A DNA stretch of 50,033 nt from an uncultured Lachnospiraceae bacterium (GTDB lineage: Bacteria > Bacillota > Clostridia > Lachnospirales > Lachnospiraceae): the NCBI GenBank assembly GCA_946614165.1, contig CAMOGQ010000005.1, positions 1-50,033 of the forward strand, given 5' to 3'. Below, one piece after another: positions 5,981-49,995 of this stretch. A program made the position numbers and the translations under genes. The notes under the pieces are model-generated. The model did no database searches, had not been told where the DNA came from, and worked only from the letters and a program-made list of their open reading frames with translations. Position 1 is the stretch's first letter; each line of letters begins with the position of its first letter.

Positions 5981-6015
5981 TCCTGTCTCTTATCCCTTAC
6001 CGGGATATCTGTCTT

Positions 6016-13623: not shown

Positions 13624-13767
13624 ATGTCTCCTATTTAATTTGTGTCCCCTCTTTTTAGGGGAATCCATCAGGTTCCTTGGGCTTTCAGATGCAGGGCATC
13701 CTTGCCAGTCTTCTTCTTTTCATTCCTTTTCCTTTCCGCATGCCTTCCGGCTGCTTTTTCTCATCTC

Positions 13768-19049: not shown

Positions 19050-21086
19050 TCATACATAAAAATGATGCTTAAGGCAATTTGCACACCTTCCACAAGGTTT
19101 TATATCAAAGTCATCCAGCTCTTTGCGGATAAAGCTCATGTAACACTTGTCTGTTTCTATAAACTCATTAAACCTCCGAAGCTCTTTCCATCTATACCAG
19201 GACACTATTCTCGCCCTTTTCATATCACAATGCCATTCCCTGATTGTTTTAAAATAGCGTGCTTTCGTTTTATAGATATCTCCGTTAACAAGAAGGTATT
19301 TTAAGACTTTATCAGCCCATACCTGCGTAACATCCAATTTCTGCATGATCTCATTTCGGCTTAAGCCAGGGTTTTCTACAATACATTCGATAACGCTTTC
19401 CATTTCATTTTCTGTGGGAAATGCATTCATAATGAAATATCTGTTTACAGCGTTATCTTCGTCCCCGGCCAACAGAACTGCGTATGCTCTGTTGATCGCT
19501 CTTCCTGCTCGCCCGATCTGCTGGTAATATGCTATTGCACTTGCAGGCTGCTGGTAGTGGATGACAAAAGCTATATCTGCCTTATCGATTCCCATCCCAA
19601 ATGCTATTGTCGCAACCAATACTTTGATTTCATTGTTTTTGAAGCGCTCTTCCGTGGTCCTTTTTTGTTCCGGGTCCAGTCGCCCATGGTAAATATCTGC
19701 ATTTATCCCATGTGCAGTAAGTGTTTCTGTCACCTCTTCGCAGTCGTGTATCGTCAGGCAGTATATGATGCCAGAACCTTGAAATTTAGGAATGTTCCTG
19801 AGCAGCCATTCAACTTTGTTTTCATCCGAACCCAGATTCAGAACATCTATGCATATACTTTTCCGGTCCATGGTCCCACGTAGGATCTCCAGATCATCAC
19901 CAAGCTGATGCCGTATATCTCTAACAACTCTGTCGTTTGCAGTAGCTGTCGTTGCGAGTACGGGTATTTCTGGGGGGAGTTGTCGTATTATTCTGATTAT
20001 GCGCCGAAAATCCGGTCTGAAATCATGTCCCCAGTCTGATATGCAGTGAGCTTCATCGACAACAAACAGAGAAAGCTTATTGTAATAATCCTTTATGAAC
20101 TCCAGGAAGACTTCATTCCCCAGCCTTTCCGGAGAAACTATAATCGCATCAATTTTATCTTTTCTTATATCGTTATAGACCTCTTTCCATTCCTTCTGTG
20201 TATCGGATGAGATCGCTTTTACGTTAATTCCAAACTTTTCTGTAGCTTCTATTTGGTTATGCATCAGTGCCAGAAGCGGGCTTATTATGATTGCAGGGCC
20301 TTTCCCCATTTCCCTCAGCTTCTTGATCGAAAGAAAGCAAACAAGGCTCTTGCCCCATCCTGTATGCTGGACTACTAACGTCTTCTTTCCATTTAAAACA
20401 GCAAGGACAGCCTCCTCCTGTCCAACCCGGAACTCTGCATTCTTTCCATATATCTGCCTGAGAGTATGTTTTATTCCAAATGTATCCTTTTCTTTATTAT
20501 CTTCAATGATTCGAGCTGTTTCGATGGTAAAAGTCTGTTCTGTTTTTTCTCCGATGTATTCTGTGATATCCTCATCAGCATAGGTTTCCTCTTCAGAAAA
20601 AGCGAAGCCATTCACAGTGCTGCTTATCTGACTGTTCAATTCCTCTCTGGTGTAGTGACGGACTGAGTCTGGTCCATACTTTTTTACCATCATGGATTCA
20701 AACGTTCGTTGACTGATGAATATCATCGGATCGTTCACAAGAGACCTGTAGTAAGATTCATTTGTCATGAACAGCTCTTCCAATGTGACCTTTTTATCTT
20801 CTTTTTGCCAGACGATATCATCCACCCTGTATTCCGTCTTATTCAGTCTCGCACCCTTTGAGAAAGTAGGCTCCGATCTGTCTACTACATCTATTCCTCT
20901 TTCAAGTATTTCAACCGTTTTTTCAGGAATGGAGTATTCATCCCTCTCAATCAGATAATTAAAATAATCTGGATCCGTCCTGAAGATCGACCGTATTGTT
21001 TCCCCTGCGTGCTTCCCCCAGGGCATTACATCATCAGCCTTCATGATCAACGGTTTTTTCTTCTTTTTTGTTTTTCTTTCTGCCAT
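19050..21086 (-). CDS. recQ: RecQ-like ATP-dependent DNA helicase with N-terminal accessory domain
   Basis: 678 residues, AAGGAG site. The N-terminal ~70 residues (MPWGKHAGETIRSIFRTDPDY) resemble the short PWGKH domain found in some exonuclease and helicase proteins. The helicase core starts near 220: Walker A TGWGKS (~243), DEAH with CISDWGHDFRPDF (~343), TTATAN, and motif VI QQIGRAGR. The C-terminus has CGRCANC, the Cys set of the RecQ zinc domain, but the HRDC domain is absent. It unwinds DNA 3' to 5' in known RecQ proteins. Compared with chromosomal RecQ the N-terminal extension is unusual. It is AT-richer than the backbone and stands alone, so it is possibly a mobile or defence-associated RecQ rather than housekeeping. 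Confidence 0.85.
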   Translation of the reverse strand: MAERKTKKKKKPLIMKADDVMPWGKHAGETIRSIFRTDPDYFNYLIERDEYSIPEKTVEILERGIDVVDRSEPTFSKGARLNKTEYRVDDIVWQKEDKKVTLEELFMTNESYYRSLVNDPMIFISQRTFESMMVKKYGPDSVRHYTREELNSQISSTVNGFAFSEEETYADEDITEYIGEKTEQTFTIETARIIEDNKEKDTFGIKHTLRQIYGKNAEFRVGQEEAVLAVLNGKKTLVVQHTGWGKSLVCFLSIKKLREMGKGPAIIISPLLALMHNQIEATEKFGINVKAISSDTQKEWKEVYNDIRKDKIDAIIVSPERLGNEVFLEFIKDYYNKLSLFVVDEAHCISDWGHDFRPDFRRIIRIIRQLPPEIPVLATTATANDRVVRDIRHQLGDDLEILRGTMDRKSICIDVLNLGSDENKVEWLLRNIPKFQGSGIIYCLTIHDCEEVTETLTAHGINADIYHGRLDPEQKRTTEERFKNNEIKVLVATIAFGMGIDKADIAFVIHYQQPASAIAYYQQIGRAGRAINRAYAVLLAGDEDNAVNRYFIMNAFPTENEMESVIECIVENPGLSRNEIMQKLDVTQVWADKVLKYLLVNGDIYKTKARYFKTIREWHCDMKRARIVSWYRWKELRRFNEFIETDKCYMSFIRKELDDFDIKPCGRCANCLKHHFYV

Positions 21087-27109: not shown

Positions 27110-28048
27110 TTACCTCTGTCCGCGTCTCAGCTGTGCAAGCGCCAGGGCCTCATACCCTTTGGCATTGGCCCGGATATCATCGATGAACCTGCACTTCTCC
27201 CTTAAATCATCCGGCAGATACTTCCTGACCGTCTGGGCACCCCCTCCCATGAACGTATAGAGCATATTGTCGGGATCGTACTCCCACTCTCCAAGAAGGG
27301 ACATAAGGTCATTCACATATTCCTGTGCGGCATTTTCCATGATCCGGATATGCTTCTCGTTGGCTACGGCCTCCGGACCTTTTTTAAGGAATTCGTCGTA
27401 GTAGCTGTAGTGTGCGTTATAGCCGGTCTCTGTGAGGATCTTCTCCCTCATCTTCCGGATGCAGACCTCTGCCCCGAACTTGTCTGTATGACACCTCTCC
27501 ACGATGGGTCTTCCGTTCACGATCATGATGGTAGAAAGCGTCCCGTTCCCCACATCAATCAGTACGTTCATGCCCTTATAGCTCCTGATATCTGCGGCAA
27601 TCGCGGCAAATCCCTGCGGGAAGAGCATCACGTCCCTGATGTTCACCGTCCTTGTCTCATCCCTGTATGTGAAACGGTATCTTCCTCCATGCAGGAGGTA
27701 CTCTTTGAAGCTGTCCTTCTGTGATCCATACCAGAGAAGTGGGAGACCTGCCGCGATGATGACCTGGGCATCTCCCTTTATATCCCTGGTCCTCAGCTCC
27801 TTTGCAAGTGCCATCGCTGTGAGGATATGATTGTCCTCATCACCGGATTTCACGTGGGAAAAGGCTTTATGGTCTTCTCCCACGATGTAGTATCTGTCCT
27901 CAAAAAGGATGTGATCGCTGTTCAGGTAAGGTTTTGTATCGGATGCCGTAATCCCTGACCGCACCGTGTAATTCCTGGTCTTCACGTGTCCGTAGCCGTG
28001 ATCGATCCCGATGATCTCTGCGCCGTTAAAATTGAATCTCTCTGCCAC
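27110..28048 (-). CDS. parM: ParM-like actin family ATPase (plasmid segregation)
   Basis: 312 residues from GTG at 28048, chosen because AGGAG lies 9 nt upstream; a TTG at 28093 would add 15 basic residues. Actin-fold motifs are visible: phosphate 1 GIDHGYGHVKT (~14-24), phosphate 2 VLIDVGNGTLSTI (~162-174) and adenosine FMGGGAQTV (~262-270). It forms filaments that push plasmid copies apart in the ParMRC scheme. It overlaps the end of the ATPase gene by 23 bp, so it is translationally coupled to it, which is unusual for parM. ParR-like follows immediately. Confidence 0.8.
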   Translation of the reverse strand: MAERFNFNGAEIIGIDHGYGHVKTRNYTVRSGITASDTKPYLNSDHILFEDRYYIVGEDHKAFSHVKSGDEDNHILTAMALAKELRTRDIKGDAQVIIAAGLPLLWYGSQKDSFKEYLLHGGRYRFTYRDETRTVNIRDVMLFPQGFAAIAADIRSYKGMNVLIDVGNGTLSTIMIVNGRPIVERCHTDKFGAEVCIRKMREKILTETGYNAHYSYYDEFLKKGPEAVANEKHIRIMENAAQEYVNDLMSLLGEWEYDPDNMLYTFMGGGAQTVRKYLPDDLREKCRFIDDIRANAKGYEALALAQLRRGQR

Positions 28049-29942
28049 TTGTCTCTTTCTCCTCTTCTCTTTTGTATATATGCCTGTAGGCAAATTCGCC
28101 GCTCATGCTGTCATAGCCGGCAACTTCCAGTATCTCGTCCACCTTATAGTCCTTCAGGAACACTATGGTCTGAAAGGCAAGAAGCTCCCTGTTGATCTGA
28201 TCAGAGGCTATGCCCTGATATGCTGCATTCTTCCGGACCAGGTTTGCGCATTTGGTCAGCACCGATCCTGCTGAATCGGCATGGATCGTCATGAAGATCC
28301 TGCATCCGGAGCCGGCAAGCGTGATCGCAGATGCGATCTCCGGCCCCTTGACTTCTCCTATCCCGAAGACATTGGAGCTCGTGACCAGTGCCAGCCTCCC
28401 GAGAGCCTCCAGGGGACAGTACTGCTGTCCCTCCTGCGGATGCATCATCACGTTCTCGAACATGATCCCCTTCCTGTCAGAGAACAGCTCGTCCGTCTCC
28501 TGGATGATCAGGATCGCAGCGCTCTTCTCGTACTGCTCCAGGAACCAGTTGGCAAGCTCCGTCTTTCCGGCCCCTGTGGCACCTGCGAACAGGACCGCCT
28601 TGCTGTGCAGGGCGCAGTCCGCAAGATAGTCCCTTACCACTTCATTGAACATGCCTGCTTTCAGGAAATAATCATCCATGGGCTTTTCTTTCGAGTGCTT
28701 TCGGATGGCCATGTAGGCATTCCCACTGCTGGAGATGTAATTTGCCGTAATCGTGATCCGCATCCGGTACAGAGGATGAGAATGGTCATGGAACTCCTGC
28801 TGTGCCACGTCTATCTGCCGGTTGTTCTTTATCGCCACCATGATGATGAACCTGGAATAATCATCTTCATCCATAAAGGACAGATTGGAAGCATAGGTCT
28901 TTCCGCCGATCCGGACCGTGATATCGTTCGGACCGCAGAGCTTGATGTCTGTGATCATGGGATCGTTTATGAGGGGCTTTATGATGTAATAGTCAAAAAG
29001 GGCCTCGTGGAGCTTTGCCATGACCGCGGTCCGGTTCTCCAGAGCCGTGATATGCATGGTTTTTACGACCTTTTCGGTAAAGTATTTCTCTGTCGGCCTC
29101 AGAAAGGCCCTTATCGCCTCTTCCTGGGCCTTTTTACCCAGGGTGTTGAGTCTCCATAGGAGTTTCTTGTATTCGTGCCTCTGGCCGCCTTCTGAGGCGT
29201 TTCTGAGGCAAAGGCGGAAAGCCTTCATAAAACTCTCATAGGAGCCCTTTATCGAGGTCTTAAGGAGCTTCCTGTCCAGGTCCTCTAGGTCATATACCAG
29301 ATCAGCAAACGGATCCACTTCGAACAGGTCCCTCTTCTCATAATGGTCCAGCCCGTTCAGGAACGGCTTGTCCCTTGAACAGCCGGAATACTTTGATTCC
29401 TGTGCGGCCAGGTAATTGTCATGGAGCTGGATCTGCCAGTCGGTATAATATCTCCTGGCTCCGGGAGGTATGATCAGTTCCGGTGCCGCCTCTTCGATCT
29501 CTTCCGTCTCTCCCATCCCAGCATAGAACTGCCGGAATATGTCCTCTACCAGCTTTTCTATATAGGCCCTGGGCCTTTTATCGAGGTATGCCCTCAGCAT
29601 CGTACAGAGCACAATCCTGCCGTCCGTGATGCCGGCTGTGATGGACAGTATGTCGATGCGGACGGTCTCAACAGACTCAAGGCAGACATACATGGCTCCT
29701 GTAATAGCAGATATCCCATGCGCGATATGATGCCTCGTGATCCCGATAAAGACCGGGTCTGCCCACTCTCCTCCCCTGTCAGGGATCAGGTCCCTGGCCA
29801 GGCGTCGCATGTTCGTCCCCTTTGCCAGAGGAACGCACTCACTTTCCGGGAATATCCTGTGAGAGCTGCAGCCTATGTCAAAGCCTGGCCATCCTGTCAC
29901 TGTATATAGCTCGAACACTTTGTTGTCATCATGGCCTGTCAC
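28026..29942 (-). CDS. CpaF/VirB11-family secretion ATPase
   Basis: 638 residues. The start is GTG at 29942, overlapping the lipoprotein stop (GTGA) with GGAGAGG 7 nt before. The C-terminal half has the T2SS/T4SS ATPase core: Walker A GATGAGKTE (~455), the Asp/Glu-rich box LIIQETDEL, GIGEVKGPEIASAITLAGSG (~525-545) and the His box MTIHADS (~550). The N-terminal ~300 residues are unusual and match no motif known to me. Such ATPases power pilus assembly or secretion from the cytosolic face of the membrane. No inner-membrane pilus platform (TadB/C-like) or pilin gene is visible in the window, so the partner machine is unknown. Confidence 0.8.
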   Translation of the reverse strand: MTGHDDNKVFELYTVTGWPGFDIGCSSHRIFPESECVPLAKGTNMRRLARDLIPDRGGEWADPVFIGITRHHIAHGISAITGAMYVCLESVETVRIDILSITAGITDGRIVLCTMLRAYLDKRPRAYIEKLVEDIFRQFYAGMGETEEIEEAAPELIIPPGARRYYTDWQIQLHDNYLAAQESKYSGCSRDKPFLNGLDHYEKRDLFEVDPFADLVYDLEDLDRKLLKTSIKGSYESFMKAFRLCLRNASEGGQRHEYKKLLWRLNTLGKKAQEEAIRAFLRPTEKYFTEKVVKTMHITALENRTAVMAKLHEALFDYYIIKPLINDPMITDIKLCGPNDITVRIGGKTYASNLSFMDEDDYSRFIIMVAIKNNRQIDVAQQEFHDHSHPLYRMRITITANYISSSGNAYMAIRKHSKEKPMDDYFLKAGMFNEVVRDYLADCALHSKAVLFAGATGAGKTELANWFLEQYEKSAAILIIQETDELFSDRKGIMFENVMMHPQEGQQYCPLEALGRLALVTSSNVFGIGEVKGPEIASAITLAGSGCRIFMTIHADSAGSVLTKCANLVRKNAAYQGIASDQINRELLAFQTIVFLKDYKVDEILEVAGYDSMSGEFAYRHIYKREEEKETSGREIQF

Positions 29943-31114
29943 TGCAGCACCTCTCCTTCGTCGTAATCAGGTCCTTCCTCTTCTGCTGTACCTTCCCCTT
30001 CCGGAAGGTCTTCCTTCTCTTCGGTCTCCTCCAGAAGCTCCAGCGAGTAGGTGAATGTCCTCTCTTCCATCCCGCCTGCTGTGAGCATATAAGTCCCCTG
30101 CGTCAGCTGGCACTCTCCTTCCATCCTTCCGATATCCGTGACAGCAAGCTCAAGATCGGCGTCTTCTCCTGTGAGGATGACTTTTGGCGCAAGGGCCGTG
30201 CCGGTCTTTGTGTATTTGACGGTGATCCTGTATCTGCCAGGGATCCCGACCTGCACACTGTATGTACCGTCTGACAGCCTCTCCAGATCCGTTTCGATCT
30301 CATTACGCTCATTAAAATCAGTGCTTTCGGTATAGGAAGTCCCGTCCACATAGCGGAATACGCCCATCCCATCTACAGAGTAGTATCCGGTCTTCATCCA
30401 GTCCGGGATATGGATCTCAAGGATATTGGAGCGGAGGAAGGAATAATCGTTCACTGTAAAGTCTTCCATCGAGACCAGGCATCTGGTATCCGCTTTGATA
30501 TAGAGCGTATTAAGATACGTTCCCACATAGGCTTCCACTTCATAATCACGGCCTTTTTCCAGGCTGCCGCTTTTCCCCCTGATGGTGCCGCCTCTCGTGA
30601 CATTTCCGGACCTGATATAATTCCCTCCTGCCCTGTCGATGATAACGGACGATGTTCCAAGGTCCTTCAGCTTCGAAGCGTCCGAATGGTTATTCACGAG
30701 AAGGCTCTTTTCCGTGGTCGAAACGCTGTACCTTCCGGAAGGAGTCTCCGCAAGCCCGCTTATTCCAAGCGTCCATCCCATATCCTCCCACCTCATGAAA
30801 TCAAAATCCTCATCCAGGACCCCTCCTGTGCAGTAGATCAGCTGGTCACCGCTGTAGAACGTTGGGATCTTCTCATAATCATCCGTGTAATAGAGCGTGT
30901 AGGAATCACCCGTCCTTTTCGGGAAATTCTTCAAAGCAAAAGAGGAATCATTTAAGTAGAGCGGCTTGTAGGCTCCGTCATGAAAGACATAAAAGCTGCC
31001 ATCTTCCAGCTGTGAAAGCTCTGTCAGCATTGTTTCTTCAGTCTCTTTGCTGCTCCCGCAGCCGGTCAGGACAATGGCAGCCGTGAGGACCGCCAGTATC
31101 AGTTTGAACTTCAT
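29939..31114 (-). CDS. Lipoprotein heading the ATPase-ParM operon
   Basis: 391 residues from the ATG at 31114 (AAGGAAG site; the longer frame to 31156 adds residues before a clear lipoprotein signal). Lipobox LTGC (Cys19). The mature protein is strand-rich, with repeated GxYxVxxxxPGRYxI-type units (YSVQVGIPGRYRITVKY, TYMLTAGG, and SGRYSVSTTEKSLLVNN) that suggest several small beta-sandwich domains. It ends in a Glu-rich tail. Exported and membrane-anchored. Its stop overlaps the ATPase start by 4 nt, so it is the first gene of a four-gene operon from box E. Confidence 0.75.
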   Translation of the reverse strand: MKFKLILAVLTAAIVLTGCGSSKETEETMLTELSQLEDGSFYVFHDGAYKPLYLNDSSFALKNFPKRTGDSYTLYYTDDYEKIPTFYSGDQLIYCTGGVLDEDFDFMRWEDMGWTLGISGLAETPSGRYSVSTTEKSLLVNNHSDASKLKDLGTSSVIIDRAGGNYIRSGNVTRGGTIRGKSGSLEKGRDYEVEAYVGTYLNTLYIKADTRCLVSMEDFTVNDYSFLRSNILEIHIPDWMKTGYYSVDGMGVFRYVDGTSYTESTDFNERNEIETDLERLSDGTYSVQVGIPGRYRITVKYTKTGTALAPKVILTGEDADLELAVTDIGRMEGECQLTQGTYMLTAGGMEERTFTYSLELLEETEEKEDLPEGEGTAEEEGPDYDEGEVLQ

Positions 31115-31171
31115 TAAAGATCTTCCTTTCTGTCTGGGTTTTGGAGGATCATTCATATCCCCTCTGCTATC

Positions 31172-31182
31172 TATATGTCAGA
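31172..31182 (-). promoter_or_regulatory. Shared upstream box (copy E)
   Basis: TATATGTCAGA on the + strand, 57 bp before the lipoprotein start of the ATPase-ParM operon. Confidence 0.5.
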
Positions 31183-31201
31183 CCCGTTCTGCTCCAGAAC
31201 A

Positions 31202-31230
31202 AAGAAAAGACAGCCCTTTCGGACTGTCTT
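31202..31230 (-). terminator. Terminator of the ParA operon
   Basis: AAGACAG(CC) / (GG)CTGTCTT stem, followed on the minus strand by TTTTCTTTG. It lies 52 bp after the RHH partner stop. Confidence 0.8.
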
Positions 31231-31281
31231 ACCCCAAAATTTATTTTATATACAAAATACACTTAATGCATATAATATATT

Positions 31282-31791
31282 TTATTTATTTCTTTCGATC
31301 TGTTTCTTTGTTTCTTCCACGTAGATCTTAGCAAGGAAGTTGATCGCAACAGAGACATTCTGGCCATTGGCGAAGCACGCCCTGGTGAATTCTTCCTTCA
31401 GTTCTTCCGGAACATAGGCTACCAGCTTGTCTCTCTTTACCTGGCCGGGATTCTCGACTTCGTATTCTGTCCCGTTCACGTTGAACGTGACTGCCGGATT
31501 GTAGCTGAGAGCAGGCCTGCCGGCCTTTTTCACTTCTTTCTTTACAGTCTTTTTTTCAGGTGCGGGAGCATCTTCCTTCGTAACTGCTTCTTCCTTGGGT
31601 TTCTTTACTGCCGGTCTCTTTTTCTGCGTCTTCTTTTCTTCCTGTTCAGAAGCTGCAGGCTGTTCCTTTTCTTCTATCTCTTCCAGCAGGCTTGCCTTGA
31701 AGCCTGTATCCTTGCTGTCCTGATCGATGACCGACTGATTGAGTACACTGTTCAAAAAACTTCCAGGTCTTGCCGCTTTCGTCTTTGCCAT
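31282..31791 (-). CDS. ParB-like partner: Lys-rich linker plus C-terminal RHH domain
   Basis: 169 residues, 12 bp after ParA. A short N-terminal segment (MAKTKAARPGSFLNSVLNQ) probably touches ParA, as in other small partition partners. A Lys/Glu/Pro-rich linker follows (~50-105) with KKAGRP, an AT-hook-like core. The C-terminus (VKRDKLVAYVPEELKEEFTRACFANGQNVSVAINFLAKIYVEET) looks like a ribbon-helix-helix. It most likely binds the AT-rich island array upstream of parA and tethers it to ParA. The AT-hook reading is tentative. It is not a canonical ParB with a Spo0J/HTH core. Confidence 0.6.
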   Translation of the reverse strand: MAKTKAARPGSFLNSVLNQSVIDQDSKDTGFKASLLEEIEEKEQPAASEQEEKKTQKKRPAVKKPKEEAVTKEDAPAPEKKTVKKEVKKAGRPALSYNPAVTFNVNGTEYEVENPGQVKRDKLVAYVPEELKEEFTRACFANGQNVSVAINFLAKIYVEETKKQIERNK

Positions 31792-31803
31792 ACCATGCCC
31801 CTC

Positions 31804-32571
31804 TTACTTTCCATACCTTTTGATGATCTCTTTTGCTAATACCATGTAATCATCAGCCGCATTGCATCCCGGTGCATAATCCAGAAGCATCATGCCTGCA
31901 GCCTGCGCGTTCTTTACATCCTGGCATGTCCTCACAGGAGCGAAAACATGGAACCCAAGCTCCTTTCCTTTGATGGGGAGGTTTTCCTTGCAGTCCCTTC
32001 CCAGTGCAGTCCTCTGGTCATAGGCCGTGATAAAGACGCCGTAGACCTTCAGCTTGTCATTGAAAGCATCCCTGACCTGGTTTATGAAGCCCAAGATCGT
32101 ATTGAGCCCGCCCAGAGCATAGATATCTGCGCTGACAGGAATGATCACGCCGTCAGCAGCAAACAGTGCCATAGAGGTATAGAATTCAAGTGTGGGGGCC
32201 GTATCGATGATGCAGTAATCGTAATCACTCTTCTCTTCGATCTCTTTGAGGGCCTTTTTAAGAGTCACAAGGTTGGCCGGTCTTGACGTATATTTCATCT
32301 GCACGCCTGCCAGAGCCGGATCGCTTGCGATGATGTCCCCGATGTCCGTATGCTGCACGGCTTCCTCAGCGCTGCATTCTCCTTCAAGCAGATCGTACAG
32401 CGTACTTTCTCCGTCGATAACAGCATGATAGGTTGCTGAGCTGTTCCCCTGGGGATCTGTATCTATGAACAGTACCTTCTTTCCTTTTTTCATAAAAACA
32501 TCGGCAAGAGCAAGCGCTGTCGTGCTCTTGCCTACACCGCCCTTGTTGTTGGCGATAACTATCGTTTGCAT
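31804..32571 (-). CDS. parA: ParA-family partition ATPase
   Basis: 255 residues with an AAGGAGG site. It shows the deviant Walker A KGGVGKST (~9-16), IDTDPQGNSS (Walker A', ~38-47), YDYCIIDTAP (Walker B, ~117-126) and LGGLNTI. It has no N-terminal HTH, so it belongs to the short type Ib-like ParA. It works on the nucleoid to position plasmid copies with its partner gene downstream. This is the second partition system in the window besides ParM/ParR. Confidence 0.9.
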   Translation of the reverse strand: MQTIVIANNKGGVGKSTTALALADVFMKKGKKVLFIDTDPQGNSSATYHAVIDGESTLYDLLEGECSAEEAVQHTDIGDIIASDPALAGVQMKYTSRPANLVTLKKALKEIEEKSDYDYCIIDTAPTLEFYTSMALFAADGVIIPVSADIYALGGLNTILGFINQVRDAFNDKLKVYGVFITAYDQRTALGRDCKENLPIKGKELGFHVFAPVRTCQDVKNAQAAGMMLLDYAPGCNAADDYMVLAKEIIKRYGK

Positions 32572-40709: not shown

Positions 40710-40871
40710 ACAATTATTGTACCGAACCGCAAGAAGAATTCTGGAAAATGCTCCTATATATAATTATTCAAAATATATAACTACAAATAACAGAAAGTCT
40801 AATATCGTATATAACTACAATTTTTTGAGAATGAATGTGTCAGCCTTATGTGGGGAGATAATAAATAATAT

Positions 40872-43800
40872 ATGAGCAGTATCGAACGCAACATAGCTAA
40901 AATTGTATATTTAGACGCAGACGGCACGGAAATACCAAGCGGTAATGCTGTGCTTATTAATGGACAGTATGCCCTCACGGTAAAGCATTGTGTTGAAGCT
41001 ATAAAAGATAAACAGATGTTTCTTTACTGCTATGATGTAGATGACTATAAGCTACGAGGAGCTGAGCTTGTAGATTGTTCCGACGATGGAGACGGGTTTG
41101 CTTTGTTAAAGATAGAGCCGGGACTTGTGGTGGAAGATGTAGAATTGATTTCTTATAAAGCGGCTCCTTTTCAAAATTTTGTAACATTTGGTTTTAATAG
41201 GAATCAAAGTGCACGGCCTATATGGCGTGGTCTCAACAACAGAACGAGTTCAAATTTCTCTTTAGGTGACTTCACAAGTGATTTGATATTTAAAGATGAT
41301 ACTAAAGAGAAAAGCTTTGATGGTTTATCAGGAAGTCCTATTTTGCAAAATAAGGATTCAAATCAGATTATCGGTTTGATTTCCCAGCAATATAAAGAAA
41401 ATGGGAAAGTGATATATCTGTATGGAATCAGTGTAGCTAGCCAGAGTATTTTTTTGTCAAGGCTGTCCAACTTGAGGTTGATGGTTGGAAATATACCAGA
41501 AGAAACAATTGATAAAATCTCCGGCGAAGGCATATTCAGTTGCTTTAAAGCATCAAATCCATATTTCTACAATTATTTCAAGCATGAGGATCGCTTGTTT
41601 TATCCAGAAAATGCAGTTAAAGATTGCCTGATTAAGGTTAATTCACGTGCGGCTGTTATTATAAAGGGAAGACAAGGTTCAGGGAAAACAACCCTTGCTC
41701 TCAAATTGGCAAAAATGTATCAGGAGGAAAATCCGCAATATGTCATTATGTATACTAATATTGCGACCAGTTGGTATCATATTCTGTCACATATACAGTG
41801 TATACGTAATTCCGTGCCAGATGCTCGCTTTGTATGGGTGATTGATGATATTCATAAATCAGTAGAATTTGAAACTGAGATTGTAAATTGGCCTTTTTCT
41901 AGTATTGATAAATACATTTTTGCTACAAGGAACAGCGACAAAACAAAGGGAAATCCATATAGAGCAGAAAGTTCCAGATGGGATGATGAATGTGTTATCA
42001 AGCTTGATATTGACAACCTCACATTTTCTAAATATCTTTACGCAGACCCAAGGTATGTTGAACTTCCATATAGGGATGTAGAAAAGATTTTTTCGATGTG
42101 TGGAGGTGATTTAACGCTTCTTGAAAACTTTAAGGTCCTTTACGAAAAAAATATTTCTGCACACTTTGGCAATGAACAGGATATCTTACGGGACATTTTT
42201 TCCTTTTATTTTCCTAATAGTCGTTATGCTGTACAAGCGAATGAATTTAAGGATGCGCTTAAGATGCTAGTAATGGGTATGCTCGATTTTCCTATTCCAC
42301 CATCTTTGCAGAATCGTACATGCAACACTATCCTTGCTCAGTTTTTTTATTCCAATATAAAGGGTGAGCTTGAATTTGACCATGCTTCCATTGCTGAACT
42401 TATTTTCTCATGCATTACTAATTATCTCCAGTTGGATTTCAAGTTGGAGTATGAATCTCTTGTCAGAGAGATAAGTCAAGAGCTTGTATCGCCTAATACA
42501 AGGAAGGATGAAATTGCCAAGCGAATTAATACGTTTTTGCAGTCGATGCTTACGTATAAATTTGTTTTACCAATTAACAAAAATAAAGCAGTTTCCTTAA
42601 ATGATGATGCGGGTAATGACGATACAGTATTTATTCTGCGAACACATAATGAATATATATCTTCTAGTACTTGGAAACTGTTGGTTAATGACAAATTTCA
42701 TCGTGACCAGAACATTAACCTTTTTATCAGCAGTATCAACAGCAATGGATTTATAAATGCGGTCTTAAATAGTCGAGATTATAATTTTCGCTTTATATAT
42801 AGAGTGCTTCCTAAAAGAGAAGTTGACATAATAAATGACGGAATACTACGAAACATGAGAGAGGTTGCAGAACAAATGGACAATAGCTCGGTGTTTGTCC
42901 TTTTGATTCGTTCATTGAAAGATGATACAGCGATAAAATTATTAGAAAAGCTTGATCAGGAAACTATCTTGAGAGCGATTTCCAACAACAGTGATGGATA
43001 CTTTGGATTTAGTTGTGGGTTGCATTATTTTAATTCCTCGGTTAACAAAAAACTGGAGGAGAGAATTGGAGAAGAGAATCTAGAAAAAATAATATCGATT
43101 TCCTCAATGTCAGCTATTTTACAGTTCTTAGAATACTTCACACTTCACAGGGATTATATATTTGAATTAATACGGAAAAATAGAGAAATAATACTTGAAA
43201 ACCAGATAACCAGGGGTTATAGCGTTCGTAGGGCAAACGAGATACTGAACACTATCAAACGTGTGAGTCCAGATCTGTTAGTAGAAATTGAGAATGCGTT
43301 TGGAGAGGATTTTTACATCTCACTATTGGAGAGAAAGGGAAACATTCAAGATTTATATGATATGCTTGTCAGTTGTAGTTTCTTATTGAGGAAAAGAATT
43401 CTAGATTATCTTCAAGAGGATAGAAACCGTACTATAGAGTTACTTAATAGAGTAGTTTTAAATACTCGTTCGATCGGTACTTTGAATTTAAGCTTGAAAT
43501 CACTAATGACGGAGTCGAAAGATAATTTTGAATGTTTGGATAGAATAATAGACTCTAGCATGTTCGTCTATTTGATTGCTTACAAAGGTAATGCAATGGA
43601 TTTGTTACGAATCATCTCGAGAACCACTAATAACACAGCTAATGCTATACTGGACGCTTTTGTGCAAGACGGCAATACGTTTTCAAAAATCATAAGACGA
43701 ACGATTGAAAATCGCATATCAATTGGAACTATGGGACTGGTTCTACATAGTTTTCAGGATGATTTGCTTGATAAAATTGAGAAGTTATTCACTGCAAATA

Positions 43801-45572
43801 CATATATGGAATTATGCAGGGGAAACGGAAACCTCCCTATTTTAATGGGAATAATGCAACATTCTTCATCAAAAATGCAAATTGAACTTGCTGTGATGCT
43901 GAAACAGAATCCAAGGTATAAGGATGAACTACTGAATAATACCATAGAAGATCAGAAAAAAATTGGAACATTTGCTTTATGTTTGAGAAGTCTCAAGGAC
44001 GAAAACGAAAAATGTCATTCCATTTTTGAAGAGGCAATCGGAGTTAGCGGTTTTATGCGCTTAATCGGTAAACGAGGAAATATCGTTATCTTATCTAGAT
44101 TCTTGCAGTATATGAGTGATGGAATGCGCATTCAGTTCATTGAGAAACTCAAGAAAAATCCCATGTCGTGTGATGCCATATTTGATAATACTTTTATTGA
44201 AGAAACGGCAGTAGGTAATTTCCATTTCTCTTTGAGAGATATGGACAAACAATCCAAGGAAATACTAAATGAGTTTGAACATGTTCTGGGAGCACCACGA
44301 TATTTAAGGATTATAAGCGAACTTGGCAATTTGACGGTTCTGTTTCAAATATTGCAATACTCCACTCCTGAGTTTATGGAAGAAATTGCGATGGAATTTG
44401 AGTCGGACAAAATAGCCTGTGAAAGAATGATTGACAGAACCATTGCACGCAGAGCCTCAATTCGGGCGATACCTCTACCATTGAAGGAAATAAATAGGAA
44501 AAATCCACGCATGATGGAACTGATGGATAGAATTATCAGTGCAGAAAGTTGGATTAACTTGTTTGTCAAGTTAGGGGATATTATGACGGTTTTTGGGTGC
44601 ATATCGGAGATGTCTGATGGCATGAGAGAATCTATCATAAACAAGTTGAAGAATCGTCAGGACGATTTTTCTAAAATAGTGTCGAATACTATAGAAAATA
44701 ATATTTCTATAGGAACACTACCACTTCGTATCAGGAGTATCAACGGTTGTGTTCCTAATATCACGGGAAAGTTTGAGGCTCTTTTCTCACCAGAAGTTTT
44801 CGTCTCATTAATGATTAATCAAGGTAAATTGTCAACATGGTTTCTTTCTCTAGGAGAGCTGTCGGTCGAATATATATGTTCGATACAGTCAATGGAATTA
44901 TATCCTATTATTAATCGCCTTTTTGAAAGGTCACTTATTGAGAAAGATGGTCTTTTTAATGTTCACTATGGGGTTAGAAGTCTTGCAGTAAAAAATTATG
45001 TCCTACTAAACATGATTGAGGGCTGTATAGGAAGAAAACGGTATAAGCAGCTTTTTATTCATGTATCGTCTCTTTTTAATGTGTTAAGAATAGCTTCATA
45101 TTCTACAATTGGAATGGAGTTATGCGAAGATATCATACAAGATCAAGACTATTTCGACGCTTTGATTAAGAATACTAGCGGAGACGAATTGTCCAATGGA
45201 TTTGAATTGGATATGTACTCTGCAATTATGAAGAGGAACAGTAATTTGGAATTCATTCTCAACAATTTAATCTCTGATGAATTGTGGATTTCCTACTTTG
45301 AAGAAAAATGTAGTTTTCACGTATTTCTTTGCATTATAAGGTGGCTACAGGGAGAAAAAATCGGCAGAATAGCTGATATACTTGTATCAAACGAAGGACA
45401 TACACATTTTTTTCAAAAAAAATGGCGTGATGAAATAATAATTGAAGATTGGAATTCTAAGTTCTCGGCGGATGCACTAGATGTTCTTAGGCGCTATGGC
45501 AAATCACTTGCCGAATTAATAAAGGATATTGTTACACAATCTCAGGTAAATGGAGCAGCATCACTTCAATAA
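40872..45572 (+). CDS. Trypsin-like protease / P-loop NTPase / helical-repeat protein, putative defence sensor
   Basis: 1566 residues. Domain 1 (~1-200) is a trypsin-like serine peptidase: His39 (LTVKHC), Asp74 (DGDGFALLK) and Ser155 (GLSGSPIL). Domain 2 is a STAND-like NTPase: Walker A GRQGSGKTT (266-274), Walker B FVWVIDDIH (320-328), and an Arg-bearing FATRNSDKT segment. Domain 3 (~650-1500) is alpha-helical and holds about eight ~80-residue repeats with the signature TIENxxSIGTxxLxLRSL. This order (protease effector, NTPase switch, long repeat sensor) matches Avs-type and other STAND antiphage proteins: the repeats would sense a phage product and unleash the protease. The gene is much more AT-rich than the plasmid backbone. 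The SD (GGGGAG) is 14 nt from ATG. Confidence 0.8.
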   Translation: MSSIERNIAKIVYLDADGTEIPSGNAVLINGQYALTVKHCVEAIKDKQMFLYCYDVDDYKLRGAELVDCSDDGDGFALLKIEPGLVVEDVELISYKAAPFQNFVTFGFNRNQSARPIWRGLNNRTSSNFSLGDFTSDLIFKDDTKEKSFDGLSGSPILQNKDSNQIIGLISQQYKENGKVIYLYGISVASQSIFLSRLSNLRLMVGNIPEETIDKISGEGIFSCFKASNPYFYNYFKHEDRLFYPENAVKDCLIKVNSRAAVIIKGRQGSGKTTLALKLAKMYQEENPQYVIMYTNIATSWYHILSHIQCIRNSVPDARFVWVIDDIHKSVEFETEIVNWPFSSIDKYIFATRNSDKTKGNPYRAESSRWDDECVIKLDIDNLTFSKYLYADPRYVELPYRDVEKIFSMCGGDLTLLENFKVLYEKNISAHFGNEQDILRDIFSFYFPNSRYAVQANEFKDALKMLVMGMLDFPIPPSLQNRTCNTILAQFFYSNIKGELEFDHASIAELIFSCITNYLQLDFKLEYESLVREISQELVSPNTRKDEIAKRINTFLQSMLTYKFVLPINKNKAVSLNDDAGNDDTVFILRTHNEYISSSTWKLLVNDKFHRDQNINLFISSINSNGFINAVLNSRDYNFRFIYRVLPKREVDIINDGILRNMREVAEQMDNSSVFVLLIRSLKDDTAIKLLEKLDQETILRAISNNSDGYFGFSCGLHYFNSSVNKKLEERIGEENLEKIISISSMSAILQFLEYFTLHRDYIFELIRKNREIILENQITRGYSVRRANEILNTIKRVSPDLLVEIENAFGEDFYISLLERKGNIQDLYDMLVSCSFLLRKRILDYLQEDRNRTIELLNRVVLNTRSIGTLNLSLKSLMTESKDNFECLDRIIDSSMFVYLIAYKGNAMDLLRIISRTTNNTANAILDAFVQDGNTFSKIIRRTIENRISIGTMGLVLHSFQDDLLDKIEKLFTANTYMELCRGNGNLPILMGIMQHSSSKMQIELAVMLKQNPRYKDELLNNTIEDQKKIGTFALCLRSLKDENEKCHSIFEEAIGVSGFMRLIGKRGNIVILSRFLQYMSDGMRIQFIEKLKKNPMSCDAIFDNTFIEETAVGNFHFSLRDMDKQSKEILNEFEHVLGAPRYLRIISELGNLTVLFQILQYSTPEFMEEIAMEFESDKIACERMIDRTIARRASIRAIPLPLKEINRKNPRMMELMDRIISAESWINLFVKLGDIMTVFGCISEMSDGMRESIINKLKNRQDDFSKIVSNTIENNISIGTLPLRIRSINGCVPNITGKFEALFSPEVFVSLMINQGKLSTWFLSLGELSVEYICSIQSMELYPIINRLFERSLIEKDGLFNVHYGVRSLAVKNYVLLNMIEGCIGRKRYKQLFIHVSSLFNVLRIASYSTIGMELCEDIIQDQDYFDALIKNTSGDELSNGFELDMYSAIMKRNSNLEFILNNLISDELWISYFEEKCSFHVFLCIIRWLQGEKIGRIADILVSNEGHTHFFQKKWRDEIIIEDWNSKFSADALDVLRRYGKSLAELIKDIVTQSQVNGAASLQ

Positions 45573-45696
45573 CAGAATAATGATGTTAAGATAATCTGTG
45601 GATATATAAAAAGAAAAATGGGTCAAGATGCGCAAGGTGTACGCGATTAGGAATCTGTTAAAGAATCTGTGATCACATATATAGGAGCTATCATGA

Positions 45697-46893
45697 ATGA
45701 GAACAGATGGAATTGAGATAAAAATGTTTCCGGCTCAATCTGGGGATTGTATTTTGATTAGCTTTATTAAGGAGGACTTCAGGATTCTTATTGACGGTGG
45801 ATATGGCAGAACATATGATGACTACTTAAAACCACACCTAATAAAGCTTGCTAAAAAGGGGAAAAAGCTAGACCTGGTAATTGCTACACATATCGACAGA
45901 GATCACATTGGGGGTATTAAAAAGTTGCTAAAGGAAAACGGAAAAGCGGATGCTCCCGAGGTCATTCCTATAGGCGAAATCTGGTTCAACGGATTTAAAA
46001 ATGTGCCTGCAATAAAGAAAAAACCAGGAGACAATTCACTTGCCATGCAGTGGAGGCTACAGACTATGGCCGCCAATAATTGCGAGGAAATTGAAAATGG
46101 CACTGAAAATATCAGTTATCAGGACGGAAACTGTTTGGCAGACCTAATCAATGAAAACAGATATTCCTGGAACAAAGCGTTTTCGGAAATTAAAACAACT
46201 GATGCCATAAATATTAACGTAGGGGTTGTCGCAAGGGATGTTCGAATGAAAGTTGAATATGGAAAAATCCATATCACTGTGCTAAACCCCACGATAGAGG
46301 ATCTAGACAATCTTGGAAGAGAATGGATTGACGTGCTAAAGCAGAGTTGCAAAGGTGATTTTACAATACAGGACAACCATTTGTTTAGCAGTGCATTTGA
46401 AGGATATTTTCTTTTTGATAAGGATTATAATTCTTATTGTGAAAATGTCAGCTTTTATACAGAAAAAGAGATTAACTGGATAATAGAAGCAGATGAGAAG
46501 GATGCCGCCAGAGACCGTTCACTACAGAACCAATCTAGCATAGCGATTCTGATTGAGTATGAAGGTAAGACACTACTATTTCCCGGTGACTGCGCGATCG
46601 AAAAGATACTCGATTATCAGTCTAATGATAGTTCGGGCTGCTTGCCGGAATCGATTGATGTGGTAAAATTGCCCCATCACGGCTCAGGGAAAAGCAATCT
46701 AAAGAATTTCATCAGAAAGTATGCAGTAGGATATTATCTGCTTTCATCAGATGGAAGTTATGGACATCCATCTAAAATGATTATAGGAAATATTATTTGC
46801 AATGCTAAGGGAAAAGCCGAGATTGTTAAGAACTATGATCTACCGATGTTGAAGGGTGTCGGAACTATGTGGAGTGAAATGAATAATATATGA
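45697..46893 (+). CDS. Cytosolic metallo-beta-lactamase-fold protein, partner of the protease-NTPase
   Basis: 398 residues with AGGAG 9 nt before the ATG. N-terminal MBL core: strand LIDGGYGRTYDDYL, then the metal motif THIDRDHIGG (64-73; H-x-D-x-D-H form, common in ComEC-like hydrolases). Later come LLFPGDC and VKLPHHGSGKSN with further ligands, so all metal sites look intact. No signal peptide. It lies 124 bp after the protease-NTPase gene on the same strand with similar AT-rich base use, and the pair is probably one operon. In AVAST type 1 an MBL protein is paired with a protease-STAND; here it probably acts as a second effector or modifies the sensor. Confidence 0.75.
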   Translation: MRTDGIEIKMFPAQSGDCILISFIKEDFRILIDGGYGRTYDDYLKPHLIKLAKKGKKLDLVIATHIDRDHIGGIKKLLKENGKADAPEVIPIGEIWFNGFKNVPAIKKKPGDNSLAMQWRLQTMAANNCEEIENGTENISYQDGNCLADLINENRYSWNKAFSEIKTTDAININVGVVARDVRMKVEYGKIHITVLNPTIEDLDNLGREWIDVLKQSCKGDFTIQDNHLFSSAFEGYFLFDKDYNSYCENVSFYTEKEINWIIEADEKDAARDRSLQNQSSIAILIEYEGKTLLFPGDCAIEKILDYQSNDSSGCLPESIDVVKLPHHGSGKSNLKNFIRKYAVGYYLLSSDGSYGHPSKMIIGNIICNAKGKAEIVKNYDLPMLKGVGTMWSEMNNI

Positions 46894-46900
46894 GTCTTCC

Positions 46901-47231
46901 CATCTTGAAATTAATCGTAGCTATAAGTTCCCTGAACTTATCAGATCTCAGAGTGGCCTCATTCCGAGCAACGACCTTTACCGGGAAGGACATCCGAGGA
47001 AAATTTCTCCTGTCCAGATCCAGTACGCCATGTCCCTGTTGAACGATCATTCACAAGCAGGTGGAAGCCATGACCGGCACATCCGTTCCAACTCTTTCAA
47101 GGGAAAGGAGCCGGCAGATTCTGATTGCGGCTAGGTACAAGGCTTCGTCTGAAGAAGAGATCCTCAATGCTTCTTTGGATAATCAGATGTGTATCACCGA
47201 TTTTCTGGAGTGTATACCTGTCTCTGACTGA
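46901..47231 (+). pseudogene. Frameshifted serine-resolvase C-terminal remnant
   Basis: One frame reads LYREGHPRKISPVQIQYAMSLLND (46947-47050 region) and then loses sense. A second frame from about 47055 continues QVEAMTGTSVPTLSRERSRQ, then ARYKASSEEEILNASLDN, and stops at 47231. Joined, this is the DNA-binding helix-turn-helix end of a Hin/resolvase-type serine recombinase. The catalytic N-terminal domain is missing. Dead recombinase fragments like this mark integration scars. The DNA from 47232 to 47600 contains other broken coding-like pieces (for example around 47260-47360) that I could not identify. Confidence 0.65.
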
Positions 47232-47626
47232 ATCGGTTTTGCAATATTATTTTTGACTACAAAAAGGACCCACAGGAATCTATCAATGGTCATCGTAAAT
47301 TAATCCGCTCTGCCGGATGCCATCGCCACATAGATGGTCAACGTCTGTATCAATGCTTATGAATAACTATACGACAAGCCACACCTGAGGTTGTACTCCG
47401 TTACTGCGAAGGCCTGCACAATCTGTCTAAAAGTGAACCGAATTTAGGAGAAAAACGTAGTTGTATAGTAATGAATGCCATAAAATTTGCGTGTTGCCAT
47501 GGTAATGCATTATTTAACAGTAGGTTTTGCTCGATATCGGTGATTCTGGAGTTTGCTTTCTGAATCACCGATTTTTAATTTTGATCCGTTCTGCCATGTA
47601 CTATGCGTACGGAGGTGGTGGATCTG

Positions 47627-48400
47627 TTGACAGATAAAAGAAAAGAGACCTTCAGGAAAATATACCCAAAGACAAACAGGGAAGCGGATAGGCTGAAAAA
47701 GTCTGTGGACATACTCAGGGTCCTGGACTACTGCGGAGCAGATATTAAGAAGAAAGGCAGCGCCTATTTCCTGAGATGCCCGGATCCGGAGCATCAGGAC
47801 CATGCACCCTACCGCAACTGCTACTGTCATACAGGTTGGAGCAACGTCCTATGCAAAAGATGCGGAAAGGCTTTCAATGCTGCTGACCTGATCATGGCCG
47901 AAAAGAAATGTGATTACGGTACTGCTATGGACATACTGTGGGAGCTGGCGGGAAAGCCGGAGTGGTACCAGAGCAGGAGAGGAAAGCCTGCTGATCCTTC
48001 ACCGGTCCTTTTTGAACTGACAAGAGAGGAGAGGAGACTTCTGGGGATCCAGCTACCGATATCCTACAGTCCCCCCTGCAGCAAGCAGGAAGGTGACCAT
48101 GCAGGGCAGGAGAGCAGGGCCCGGCTTTGCCTGAGCGACATCATGGCCGAGAAGGACTATATTTACATGGTCCAGGAGAAAGCTGCTGAAAAGATCAGGG
48201 AAATGGAAGAAATAAAGAAGGAGATAGCTTTGGCGAAGAAAACTGCAGCATACACAGGGGAAGATGAACTGACACTGGCGGCAGACGAAGCGATACGGGT
48301 CTGCAGAGAGATTCTGGCTAGGTCAGGACAAAAAATAACAATAAAAAAGGACTTCTTACGAAGCCCTTTTTTACAGACGCTTGCTCACTCACAAGAATGA
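47627..48400 (+). CDS. CHC2 zinc-finger (primase-type) protein
   Basis: 257 residues from TTG 47627 (GGAGG 11 nt upstream); an ATG at 47603 would add eight residues but has no site. Residues ~35-115 match the DnaG-type CHC2 zinc finger: DYCGADIKKKGSAYFLRCP, PEHQD, CYCHTGW, LCKRCG, FNAADLIM. There is no TOPRIM catalytic domain, so it is not a primase by itself; it could bind DNA for replication. Its base use matches the backbone rather than the AT-rich island. The C-terminal helices (EKIREMEEIKKEIALAKK) may form a coiled coil. Confidence 0.7.
   Translation: MTDKRKETFRKIYPKTNREADRLKKSVDILRVLDYCGADIKKKGSAYFLRCPDPEHQDHAPYRNCYCHTGWSNVLCKRCGKAFNAADLIMAEKKCDYGTAMDILWELAGKPEWYQSRRGKPADPSPVLFELTREERRLLGIQLPISYSPPCSKQEGDHAGQESRARLCLSDIMAEKDYIYMVQEKAAEKIREMEEIKKEIALAKKTAAYTGEDELTLAADEAIRVCREILARSGQKITIKKDFLRSPFLQTLAHSQE
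48344..48373 (+). terminator. Terminator overlapping the end of the CHC2 gene
   Basis: AAAAAAGGaCTTC / GAAGcCCTTTTTT hairpin with a short loop and T-run. It lies inside the last codons of the gene, so coding and termination overlap. Confidence 0.75.
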
Positions 48401-48552: not shown

Positions 48553-49995
48553 TTAAAATGCCGATATATATTTGATTATCAAAGTTATCATTGAATTAAA
48601 TTTGTCTTCAGCTTCTTTAGCATGTTGTTGTGCAATAGCAGAGGATCGTTCTTCTCCAGGTGCATATGATATAAACTGTCCGTAAGAAACGATAAACGCA
48701 TTATAGATATCAACAAGTTGCTTTGCTTTTGCTGCGTTTTCTTTATCAGAAAACTGATTGAACTCATAGAACCTAAACACCTGGTCCATGCAGGTATTTA
48801 ATGATGATGATATAGCGTTGATTTCCGGAATATTACCTCTTCGTGTGGCGTCTCTATAAGCAACCGAATTTTGATACAGTTCCATAAGTAATGTATAGAA
48901 TTTCGTTGATTCACTGTTTTTGTAATTTGCAGTTTCTCTTTGGTATGGATTAGCTGATGGATTAAAATTCAGTTGTTTCATTACAAACGTTAACGTGCAA
49001 AATGCATTATCACAGGCAAATGCTTGCACACAATTCTTAATAGTCTCTCCATCGTAATCTTTGTATCCATCTCCGATAACTTCTTCCCAGCCATTTTTTA
49101 CTGCGCCCCAATCACAAATCCCTTTTATAATCATAAATGGAATATGTCTGTTTTTTCGCTTCTGGCAAGCATAGTATATACCACTTGCTTCCATCTCTCC
49201 ACCAACTACTGTGTGCCCAAGATTTTCCGCTGCTTCTACTAATTTCCCTCTTTCCGCGGCGTCACTTAAAACGGTTCCTCCTGTAAGCATAGATCCAAAA
49301 TACCATTTAAAGCTGCCCACTTCCTTGGGTGGAGTATTCTGATCAAGTCGATGTAATTGAGAGCTGAGATTTGGGTCAATCCGATACGATTCGTGGGGGC
49401 TGAGTTTAATCTTTCCGTCTGTCACTTTATTAAAATGATCATAAAATACAAGACCCTTAGAAACTAAGACGTCACCTAAGGATTGATTGACGGGATTGAT
49501 TCCAAATGCGACACCAACTGACATAACATATTTGGGAGTTACTTTTTCCAATGCTGCTTCTAAAGCACTGAAGGATCCGTACTGTGTAAATGATGCTGTA
49601 TCGGTAGGCCAAATATGGCAAACAGGAATCTTATCAATATATGCAAATTGAAACAAATGTCCTTCATACGGCCATGCATCGAGTGCTGTTGTTCCGGAGG
49701 ATTGCATCAACCGCCACGACAGAATCGAACCTTCAACGCTGTTAGCGCTGAGAATAAGAACTTGACTTTTTTCCAGTTCCTTAATGAAATCTTCTTCTGT
49801 CATTTTATTAGGATTTGGAGTGCACAACAAAGGATTATACTGTTCAATTATACGTACACCTTTTTCGGACCAGAAGGATTTCAGGTTATTTATCACATCT
49901 TCTCTGTATTCAGCTTGTTTAAGTATCCTATTAGCCAATTGTTCATCTACTTCAACCATTATTTTACCTGTTTCGTCATTCATTTTTGTGTTCAT
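48553..49995 (-). CDS. Nucleoside-phosphorylase-domain protein with helical C-terminus
   Basis: 480 residues. The central part (~75-330) looks like the PNP/MTA-nucleosidase fold: ALEKVTPKYVMSVGVAFGINP, LGDVLVSKGLVFYDHF, GSMLTGGTVLSDAAERGKL, VVGGEMEASGIYYAC (the usual purine-pocket ME pair) and IKGICDWG. The C-terminal ~140 residues are helical and unknown. In conflict systems such domains are proposed to act on nucleotides or as sensors. It stands alone beside the protease-NTPase island and converges on the CHC2 gene. A very strong hairpin fills the space between its SD and ATG (49996-50012), and a second in-frame ATG lies 12 nt further in. Confidence 0.7.
   Translation of the reverse strand: MNTKMNDETGKIMVEVDEQLANRILKQAEYREDVINNLKSFWSEKGVRIIEQYNPLLCTPNPNKMTEEDFIKELEKSQVLILSANSVEGSILSWRLMQSSGTTALDAWPYEGHLFQFAYIDKIPVCHIWPTDTASFTQYGSFSALEAALEKVTPKYVMSVGVAFGINPVNQSLGDVLVSKGLVFYDHFNKVTDGKIKLSPHESYRIDPNLSSQLHRLDQNTPPKEVGSFKWYFGSMLTGGTVLSDAAERGKLVEAAENLGHTVVGGEMEASGIYYACQKRKNRHIPFMIIKGICDWGAVKNGWEEVIGDGYKDYDGETIKNCVQAFACDNAFCTLTFVMKQLNFNPSANPYQRETANYKNSESTKFYTLLMELYQNSVAYRDATRRGNIPEINAISSSLNTCMDQVFRFYEFNQFSDKENAAKAKQLVDIYNAFIVSYGQFISYAPGEERSSAIAQQHAKEAEDKFNSMITLIIKYISAF

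Follow-up and report, generated by a model that had tools for sequence, protein, structure and literature searches.

Organization of the locus

We analyzed a pair of adjacent genes on a stretch of 50,033 nucleotides (the window) from an uncultured Lachnospiraceae bacterium (contig CAMOGQ010000005.1 of assembly GCA_946614165.1, which consists of 288 contigs and is 87.65% complete). Gene A (40872..45572) encodes a protein of 1566 residues that combines a trypsin-like protease, an nSTAND3 nucleoside triphosphatase (NTPase) and a repeat region and is likely to be a sensor. Gene B (45697..46893) encodes a 398-residue protein of the metallo-beta-lactamase (MBL) fold, which is likely to be a gated pro-nuclease. 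Both genes and all their parts described below lie on the forward strand, and 124 bp of sequence separate them (45573..45696). An earlier note on this DNA had proposed the pair as a candidate antiphage system on a plasmid. Both open reading frames and the gap between them were recovered as described there, and the AT-richness reported for the two genes was borne out, with GC contents of 34-39% across their parts compared with 46% for the window.

The protease, NTPase and repeats of gene A

The trypsin-like protease domain comprises residues 1-197 (40872..41462), as judged from an iterated profile, conserved His and Ser columns, identity to the proteins P0128 and P0129, and Foldseek. The Pfam Trypsin match to gene A is weak (E 0.049, under the cut-off), and a family profile iterated from related loci scores 98 bits for the protease over residues 24-183. 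The likely triad consists of H39 (40986-40988), D74 (41091-41093) and the nucleophile S153 (41328-41330), which sits in the motif G-L-S-G-S-P. H39 and S153 are each kept in 79 of 80 aligned rows, the remaining row being a gap, in an alignment that counts the window twice and contains one gene split in two. The Asp of the family motif D-[IV]-A is altogether missing in several loci. Since D74 is kept in P0128 and P0129, the two closest protease relatives, it likely belongs to the catalytic triad in spite of its displacement in the alignment. The triad proposed earlier therefore stands for H39 and, as a likely assignment, for D74, while its Ser155 has to be replaced by S153, two residues away.

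The NTPase core spans residues 243-360 (41598..41951). A match to nSTAND3 of 33.1 bits (Pfam cut-off 27.2) identifies a STAND-type P-loop core, and NB-ARC matches with 25.3 bits, also over the Pfam cut-off (23.5). Walker A (GRQGSGKT, residues 266-273, 41667-41690) and Walker B (ending in D325-D326) were found as previously noted. In hhalign comparisons, the NTPase part gave probabilities of 90.5% with locus L030 (36 columns) and 75.7% with a group of Avs1b-like proteins (22 columns), in both cases around the P-loop, and 81.6% over 93 columns with L030 when the query was the entire core.

Behind the core, a repeat profile built from six copies detects eight significant copies at residues 792-1435 (43245..45176) with a spacing of ~83 residues, in agreement with the number first reported, in addition to one marginal copy at residues 1452-1508 and two fragments below significance at residues 674-768. 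These 83-residue repeats are likely the sensor. Structure prediction covered residues 1-800 of gene A, and the repeats are known from sequence. A scan of 105 other loci with the repeat profile gave no match at E up to 1. Likewise, residues 560-1566 did not exceed an hhalign probability of 0.7% against any of the 21 groups of other trypsin partners, a comparison weakened by the fact that several of these groups are single sequences.

The MBL-fold protein and its predicted gating loops

The best NCBIfam match of the gene B product is Avs1a (260 bits; equivalog cut-off 420), and the PADLOC profiles LmuA (E 4e-68) and Avs1a (E 6e-59) also match it. By these profiles, the protein is closest to enzymes of the Avs1a/LmuA type. 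Its structure model is confident (mean predicted local distance difference test score, pLDDT, 87.2) and has the MBL domain of ComEC as its best solved fold match (9ic4, E 2e-11), which was also returned by a profile search of solved structures (E 4e-14); the second fold match is the phosphorylcholine esterase Pce. The match to ComEC fits the likeness drawn between the MBLs of gated nuclease-protease pairs and DNA-uptake nucleases (PMC12799240, cited here and below from part of its text). The full metal motifs claimed for this protein are present: H65, D67, D69, H70, D298, H328 and H357 are invariant in all 39 rows of an alignment. Among 88 other loci with an MBL gene, H65, D69 and H70 are each kept in 88, D67 in 87, D298 and H328 in 86 (with two gaps) and H357 in 79.

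The MBL model contains only two stretches of at least three residues with a pLDDT below 50, namely residues 133-142 (loop 1, 46093..46122) and residues 243-254 (loop 2, 46423..46458). Both segments are likely disordered, as judged from the model. Of the 39 rows, 35 have I and 4 have V at position 139 in loop 1, with S at the next position in all 39; at position 251 in loop 2, 33 rows have I and 6 have V, with S next to it in 34. In the published pairs, the cuts in HamM fall directly behind I118 and I218, one site per loop; both loops are predicted to block the active site, and defense needs each Ile, while EpiAvs1a receives one such cut, beside I134, during infection (PMC12799240). By analogy, I139-S140 and V251-S252 are likely cut sites of the protease. 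With two low-confidence insertions and an Ile site in loop 1, the gene B product has the anatomy of the gated pro-nuclease described in that paper, V replacing the second Ile; V at the loop 2 site is also found in 25 of the rows from the 88 loci.

Comparison loci with MBL and trypsin genes

The classified loci (L001-L090) comprise the window itself (L001), one locus without an MBL gene (L003) and the 88 others with one. The 80 loci taken from genomes are the best 80 of at least 481 confirmed and thus represent top-scoring relatives, not a random sample. The counts do not include L091 and L094 (the window once more), L092 (the same place as L002), L093 and L105-L108 (covered by the repeat-profile scan only) or L095-L104 (from a search with P0002).

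A gene matching the trypsin profile is present in 81 of the 88 loci. The MBL gene lies upstream on the same strand in 75 of these, is divergent in six and is downstream in none, unlike in the window, where it lies downstream. Collapsing the set at 90% MBL identity leaves 69 distinct trypsin loci, 63 with the MBL gene upstream and six divergent. At one of the upstream loci (L017), a gap of 2951 bp separates the MBL gene from the trypsin gene. I or V occupies site 1 in 77, site 2 in 72 and both sites in 70 of the 81 trypsin loci. Three of the seven loci without a trypsin gene (L024, L051, L086) end near the MBL gene; among the four with surroundings, I or V at both sites is absent from L078, L088 and L090 and present in L008, whose MBL reading frame is short (265 residues). 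The pairwise identities of the MBL and trypsin domains are correlated (Mantel r 0.83, with none of 999 permutations as high; 78 rows including the window), in a test that ignores tree relatedness.

A trypsin-nSTAND3 fusion is not unique to the window, since L066 has one (27.4 bits, cut-off 27.2) with the MBL gene upstream, and no similarity between its sensor and that of gene A was detectable. The joining of the window's sensor to a protease is the single case found. Checked for their defense context, the MBL-trypsin relatives include a recognizable Avs1 locus, L080.

Several layouts recur among these loci. L004-L006 and L008 carry two conserved genes (195 and 242 residues) upstream together with the MBL gene; L006, a relative of L004, has its trypsin domain fused to a 2039-residue protein with TPR-type matches under the cut-off and no recognized STAND domain. 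L002, from genome G013 of the same family, shares its layout with L005. An MBL gene followed by a trypsin fusion of 927-936 residues and two small genes (132-172 and 107-138 residues) is found in L014, L021-L023, L025, L039, L040, L050, L060, L064, L077 and L083, and the trypsin-fusion protein of L014 shows a weak match to Avs2 (25.9 bits).

Mosaic structure of gene A

The two ends of gene A have different relatives. Residues 1-195 are 46% identical to P0128 and residues 1-197 are 43% identical to P0129 (2007 residues), and no significant similarity of these two proteins to gene A was detected beyond the protease. P0128 (933 residues) consists of a trypsin-like protease, an NTPase-like region (weak Pfam matches below the cut-off) and pentapeptide repeats (Pfam Pentapeptide, E 6e-37), and the only Pfam match of P0129 is a weak one to trypsin. 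From residue 216 onward, the relatives are the STAND proteins P0001-P0007, which have the same NTPase and repeats with 54-76% identity over the shared part; they are the sole relatives reported from a search of 5.8 billion proteins with 7,993 candidates scored. The fusion boundary can thus be placed at residues 198-215 (41463..41516), as the protease similarity ends by residue 197 and the similarity to P0002 starts at 216. Compared with P0002-P0006, gene A shows 9-18% identity at residues 1-200 and 54-73% at residues 258-360. By these alignments, gene A is a mosaic, with a protease (1-197) like those on other proteins and a remainder like rare STAND proteins.

P0002, P0004 and P0005 share a different N-terminal domain, and P0003 and P0006 carry other N-termini, that of P0003 being perhaps a remote version of the P0002-type domain. 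This domain, which has no Pfam family, recurs on small proteins; of the five examined (L095-L098, L104), L097 and L098 carry CTD11 and L104 carries CTD6, both C-terminal domains of ABC-3C systems, and L095 and L096 have no Pfam match. L009, a 366-residue trypsin fusion, matches CTD7 with 22.7 bits, under the cut-off of 27.6. As the P0002-type domain occurs on ABC-3C proteins and a CTD-like end on a protease, STAND and ABC-3C systems may take their N-terminal modules from a common pool.

The GC content hardly changes at the join (37.7% compared with 35.6%) and does not mark the fusion boundary, so we do not claim a recent swap. Scans for the STAND part with two short patterns confirmed none of 41 pattern matches in genome contigs and none of 50 in viral contigs, and tblastn found no match to it in plasmids and phages. 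No other copy of the core was found in samples of the family, order and class (397, 392 and 391 genomes, respectively), which overlap and each include the own genome. The matches in these samples were to the protease part, to the N-terminal domain of P0002, or short and weak, several of them around the P-loop. One weak match to the repeat region fell on a protein of genome G881 (L102) in which the repeat profile finds nothing and which looks like a peptide chain release factor. The closest MBL relatives are P0009-P0021, and a viral scan for this clade gave four weak partial matches.

Relation to known systems

With the published gated nuclease-protease pairs (HamM/protease-HamA, Avs1a/Avs1b, Lamassu and the defense-associated reverse transcriptases, DRT; PMC12799240), the window pair shares an MBL protein with two loops and Ile/Val-Ser sites, an N-terminal trypsin-like protease on a defense-type protein, and adjoining genes. 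The differences are another STAND sensor behind the protease and a nuclease gene that follows the protease gene rather than preceding it. We do not treat an upstream nuclease gene as defining, since the paper calls it upstream only 'typically' and since the gene is downstream in Canu (caspase-nuclease; PMC12799240). In Canu, the gene for a gated MBL nuclease comes after that for the protease, as gene B comes after gene A in the window; unlike in the window, the protease is a caspase, and the loops are reported to have Gly and not Ile/Val.

Lamassu has its protease fused to an ABC-3C/Lmu C-terminal domain, whereas a Pfam search of gene A gave no CTD domain at E up to 0.1. Hachiman of the HamM type has a HamA fusion with an adjacent HamB helicase, whereas the neighbors of the window pair are a 496-residue protein without a Pfam match above the cut-off and a CHC2 zinc-finger protein; a DEAD helicase lies at 19050-21086, ~20 kb away. 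Compared with the MBL-containing DRT systems, the adjacent genes are without a reverse transcriptase (Pfam), and the PADLOC match of 47603-48400 to RT_UG29 spans just positions 3-94 of 2280. P0001-P0007 share the NTPase and repeats of gene A but have, in five cases, an N-terminal domain without protease, which in P0002, P0004 and P0005 is one also found on the ABC-3C proteins with CTD11 and CTD6.

The earlier note had suggested a variant on the theme of AVAST type 1 and related NTPase conflict systems. The pair of an MBL protein and a protease-STAND protein does follow that theme, and the window protease matches the N-terminus of Avs1b, but membership in AVAST type 1 was rejected on the Avs1b profile, the lack of a third gene and the reversed gene order. 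The two-gene form as a whole was matched to no described system, a possibility that the note had raised.

Proposed function

We propose that the pair is probably an abortive-infection immune system, in which the protease of a STAND sensor cuts the gating loops of an MBL enzyme that then degrades DNA. This is suggested by the conserved sites in the two loops, by the occurrence of I/V together with trypsin partners, by the correlated identities of the MBL and trypsin domains, by the presence of the catalytic motifs and by the ComEC-like fold. In such a system, the 83-residue repeats would bind the infection signal, and ATP-dependent oligomerization of the STAND protein on a phage signal would bring the fused proteases together. 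The protease of gene A would then cut the gene B product after I139 and V251, and the opened MBL site would degrade DNA, so that the cell would die or stop growing. We infer the cut after Ile, the switching on of the nuclease and the final death or arrest from other members of the published pairs (PMC12799240). By the same analogy, the MBL protein is most likely the substrate of the protease and not a parallel part (PMC12799240). Avs1-Avs4 sense phage proteins (PMC12931631, cited in part), and we infer, in a step without direct precedent, that the repeats bind the trigger and that this trigger is a phage protein.

Several observations weigh against this proposal. The pair is known here from sequence and predicted structure alone, and the full protease-STAND fusion was seen once, in one genome. 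Five of the seven STAND relatives have another N-terminus and no protease, and the other two, P0001 (the closest, 76%) and P0007, start inside the protein and are uninformative on this point. Residues 1-800 are poorly modeled (mean pLDDT 63.5), and the 50 listed Foldseek matches of this model are mostly trypsin-fold serine proteases and include no STAND protein, so the STAND fold, which passes the cut-offs of the profiles, is an assignment by sequence profiles. D74 is offset by one column from the usual Asp of the family (D-[IV]-A), and the locus nearest to the window protease, L004, shares just 27% identity with it (47% for the MBL protein). Moreover, the predicted cut site in loop 2 has V and not I, in 11 of the 81 trypsin loci at least one of the two sites is neither I nor V, and in L042 and L070 both are Thr, so the I/V motif is not obligatory.

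As to novelty, the chances appear evenly balanced that the pair is an NLR-like system of a new type, in which a rare sensor made of 83-residue helical repeats swapped its N-terminal domain for the protease of a gated pair, had the nuclease installed downstream, and responds to a phage signal differing from those of Avs1-Avs5. The sensor, the junction and the gene order are new, while the mechanism is already published, and the pair appears to combine immune parts that are mostly known in a new way and not to be a system of a new kind. That adaptor domains recruit trypsin-like proteases to STAND proteins was proposed earlier (PMC10907252, cited in part). No paper on this sensor with the protease was found among the titles and abstract openings surveyed in the open-licence literature, a survey with most subscription papers and all supplements outside its scope.

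The protease half of a published nuclease-protease pair is here joined to yet another sensor, at a boundary that can be mapped and that has relatives on either side: the sensor recurs behind different N-termini, and proteases closely related to this one are found on other proteins. Such a set offers a natural experiment for telling the part that determines the trigger from the part that determines the output. The locus also suggests that trypsin-type pairs do not have a fixed gene order. Should the repeats indeed bind a phage protein, they would be a candidate for a new recognition scaffold.

Alternative explanations

The pair could also defend or stabilize a mobile element, for instance in plasmid exclusion or inter-element competition, with the same enzymes responding to another trigger. 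The window does contain ParA, an actin-like partition protein, a T2SSE-type ATPase and a CHC2 zinc-finger protein, but the published systems tested, HamMAB, EpiAvs and Canu, protect against phages (PMC12799240), and we regard such a role as unlikely. It is, in our view, quite unlikely that the pair is a divergent AVAST type 1 system with rearranged genes that senses the phage terminase. In its favor, Avs1a is the best NCBIfam match of the MBL protein (260 bits), and the match of the protease to Avs1b covers the N-terminal ~165 residues. Past the protease, however, only the P-loop matches Avs1b-like proteins. The Avs1b profile gives 16.8 bits on gene A, confined to residues 23-167, whereas the control L080 reaches 980 bits over 23-1930, itself under the cut-off of 1500; the MBL protein of L080 scores 474 bits on Avs1a, over the cut-off of 420. 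The hhalign probability of the repeats against the Avs1b-like group (14 proteins of 1911-1968 residues, of which only L080 was checked with the Avs1b model) is 0.1%. AVAST type 1 has a small third gene, Avs1c, while the plus strand between gene B and the next gene (46894 to 47602) holds no open reading frame of more than 56 residues and thus no Avs1c-sized gene; in addition, the gene order is reversed.

That the two proteins act independently, with the MBL protein hydrolyzing a nucleotide messenger, RNA or a phosphodiester, is very improbable. The MBL fold does act on many substrates, as the second fold match to Pce illustrates, but the correlated divergence of MBL and trypsin, the anatomy of loops and cut sites, and the published biochemistry of relatives all speak for joint action. 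Slimmest of all is the prospect that the fusion is an artefact of assembly or annotation or a non-functional chimera. A fusion seen once in so fragmented an assembly invites this suspicion; against it, the frame is open over 1566 codons, the catalytic motifs are present and the GC content is nearly the same on both sides of the join. A single false join would also be insufficient, because the partner modules flank the STAND part on both sides, the protease at its 5' end and the MBL gene after its 3' end.

Expression signals and genomic context

An AGGAG ribosome-binding-type site (45683-45687, forward strand) lies 9 nt ahead of the start of gene B. Upstream of gene A, two exact 13-nt direct repeats, TATATAACTACAA, lie 34 nt apart (40774..40820, forward strand) and might, speculatively, form an operator. 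Promoter and terminator scans were no better than shuffled sequences (26 compared with a shuffle mean of 25.9, and 4 compared with 3.1, respectively), and an Rfam search gave no match at gathering scores.

The plasmid setting suggested earlier is consistent with the presence of two plasmid-like partition genes in the window, encoding ParA (31804-32571, reverse strand) and the actin-like protein (27110-28093, reverse strand). Together with the genes for the T2SSE-type ATPase and the CHC2 zinc-finger protein, they occupy 27110-32571 (reverse strand) and 47603-48400 (forward strand) and are likely the backbone of a plasmid or integrative element. On the strand opposite to gene B, 48553-49995 encodes a 480-residue protein with a PNP_UDP_1 nucleosidase domain (Pfam E 6e-11), which also matches the PADLOC profile 'Effector PN-superfamily' (E 2e-10) and is possibly a second conflict gene. 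At the far end of the window, the region 1906-13668 (reverse strand) encodes two choline-binding proteins, one of them with an MBL domain (Pce/CbpE-like), and a likely surface adhesin of 2550 residues that contains SpaA folds and 14 T-Q ester bond domains.

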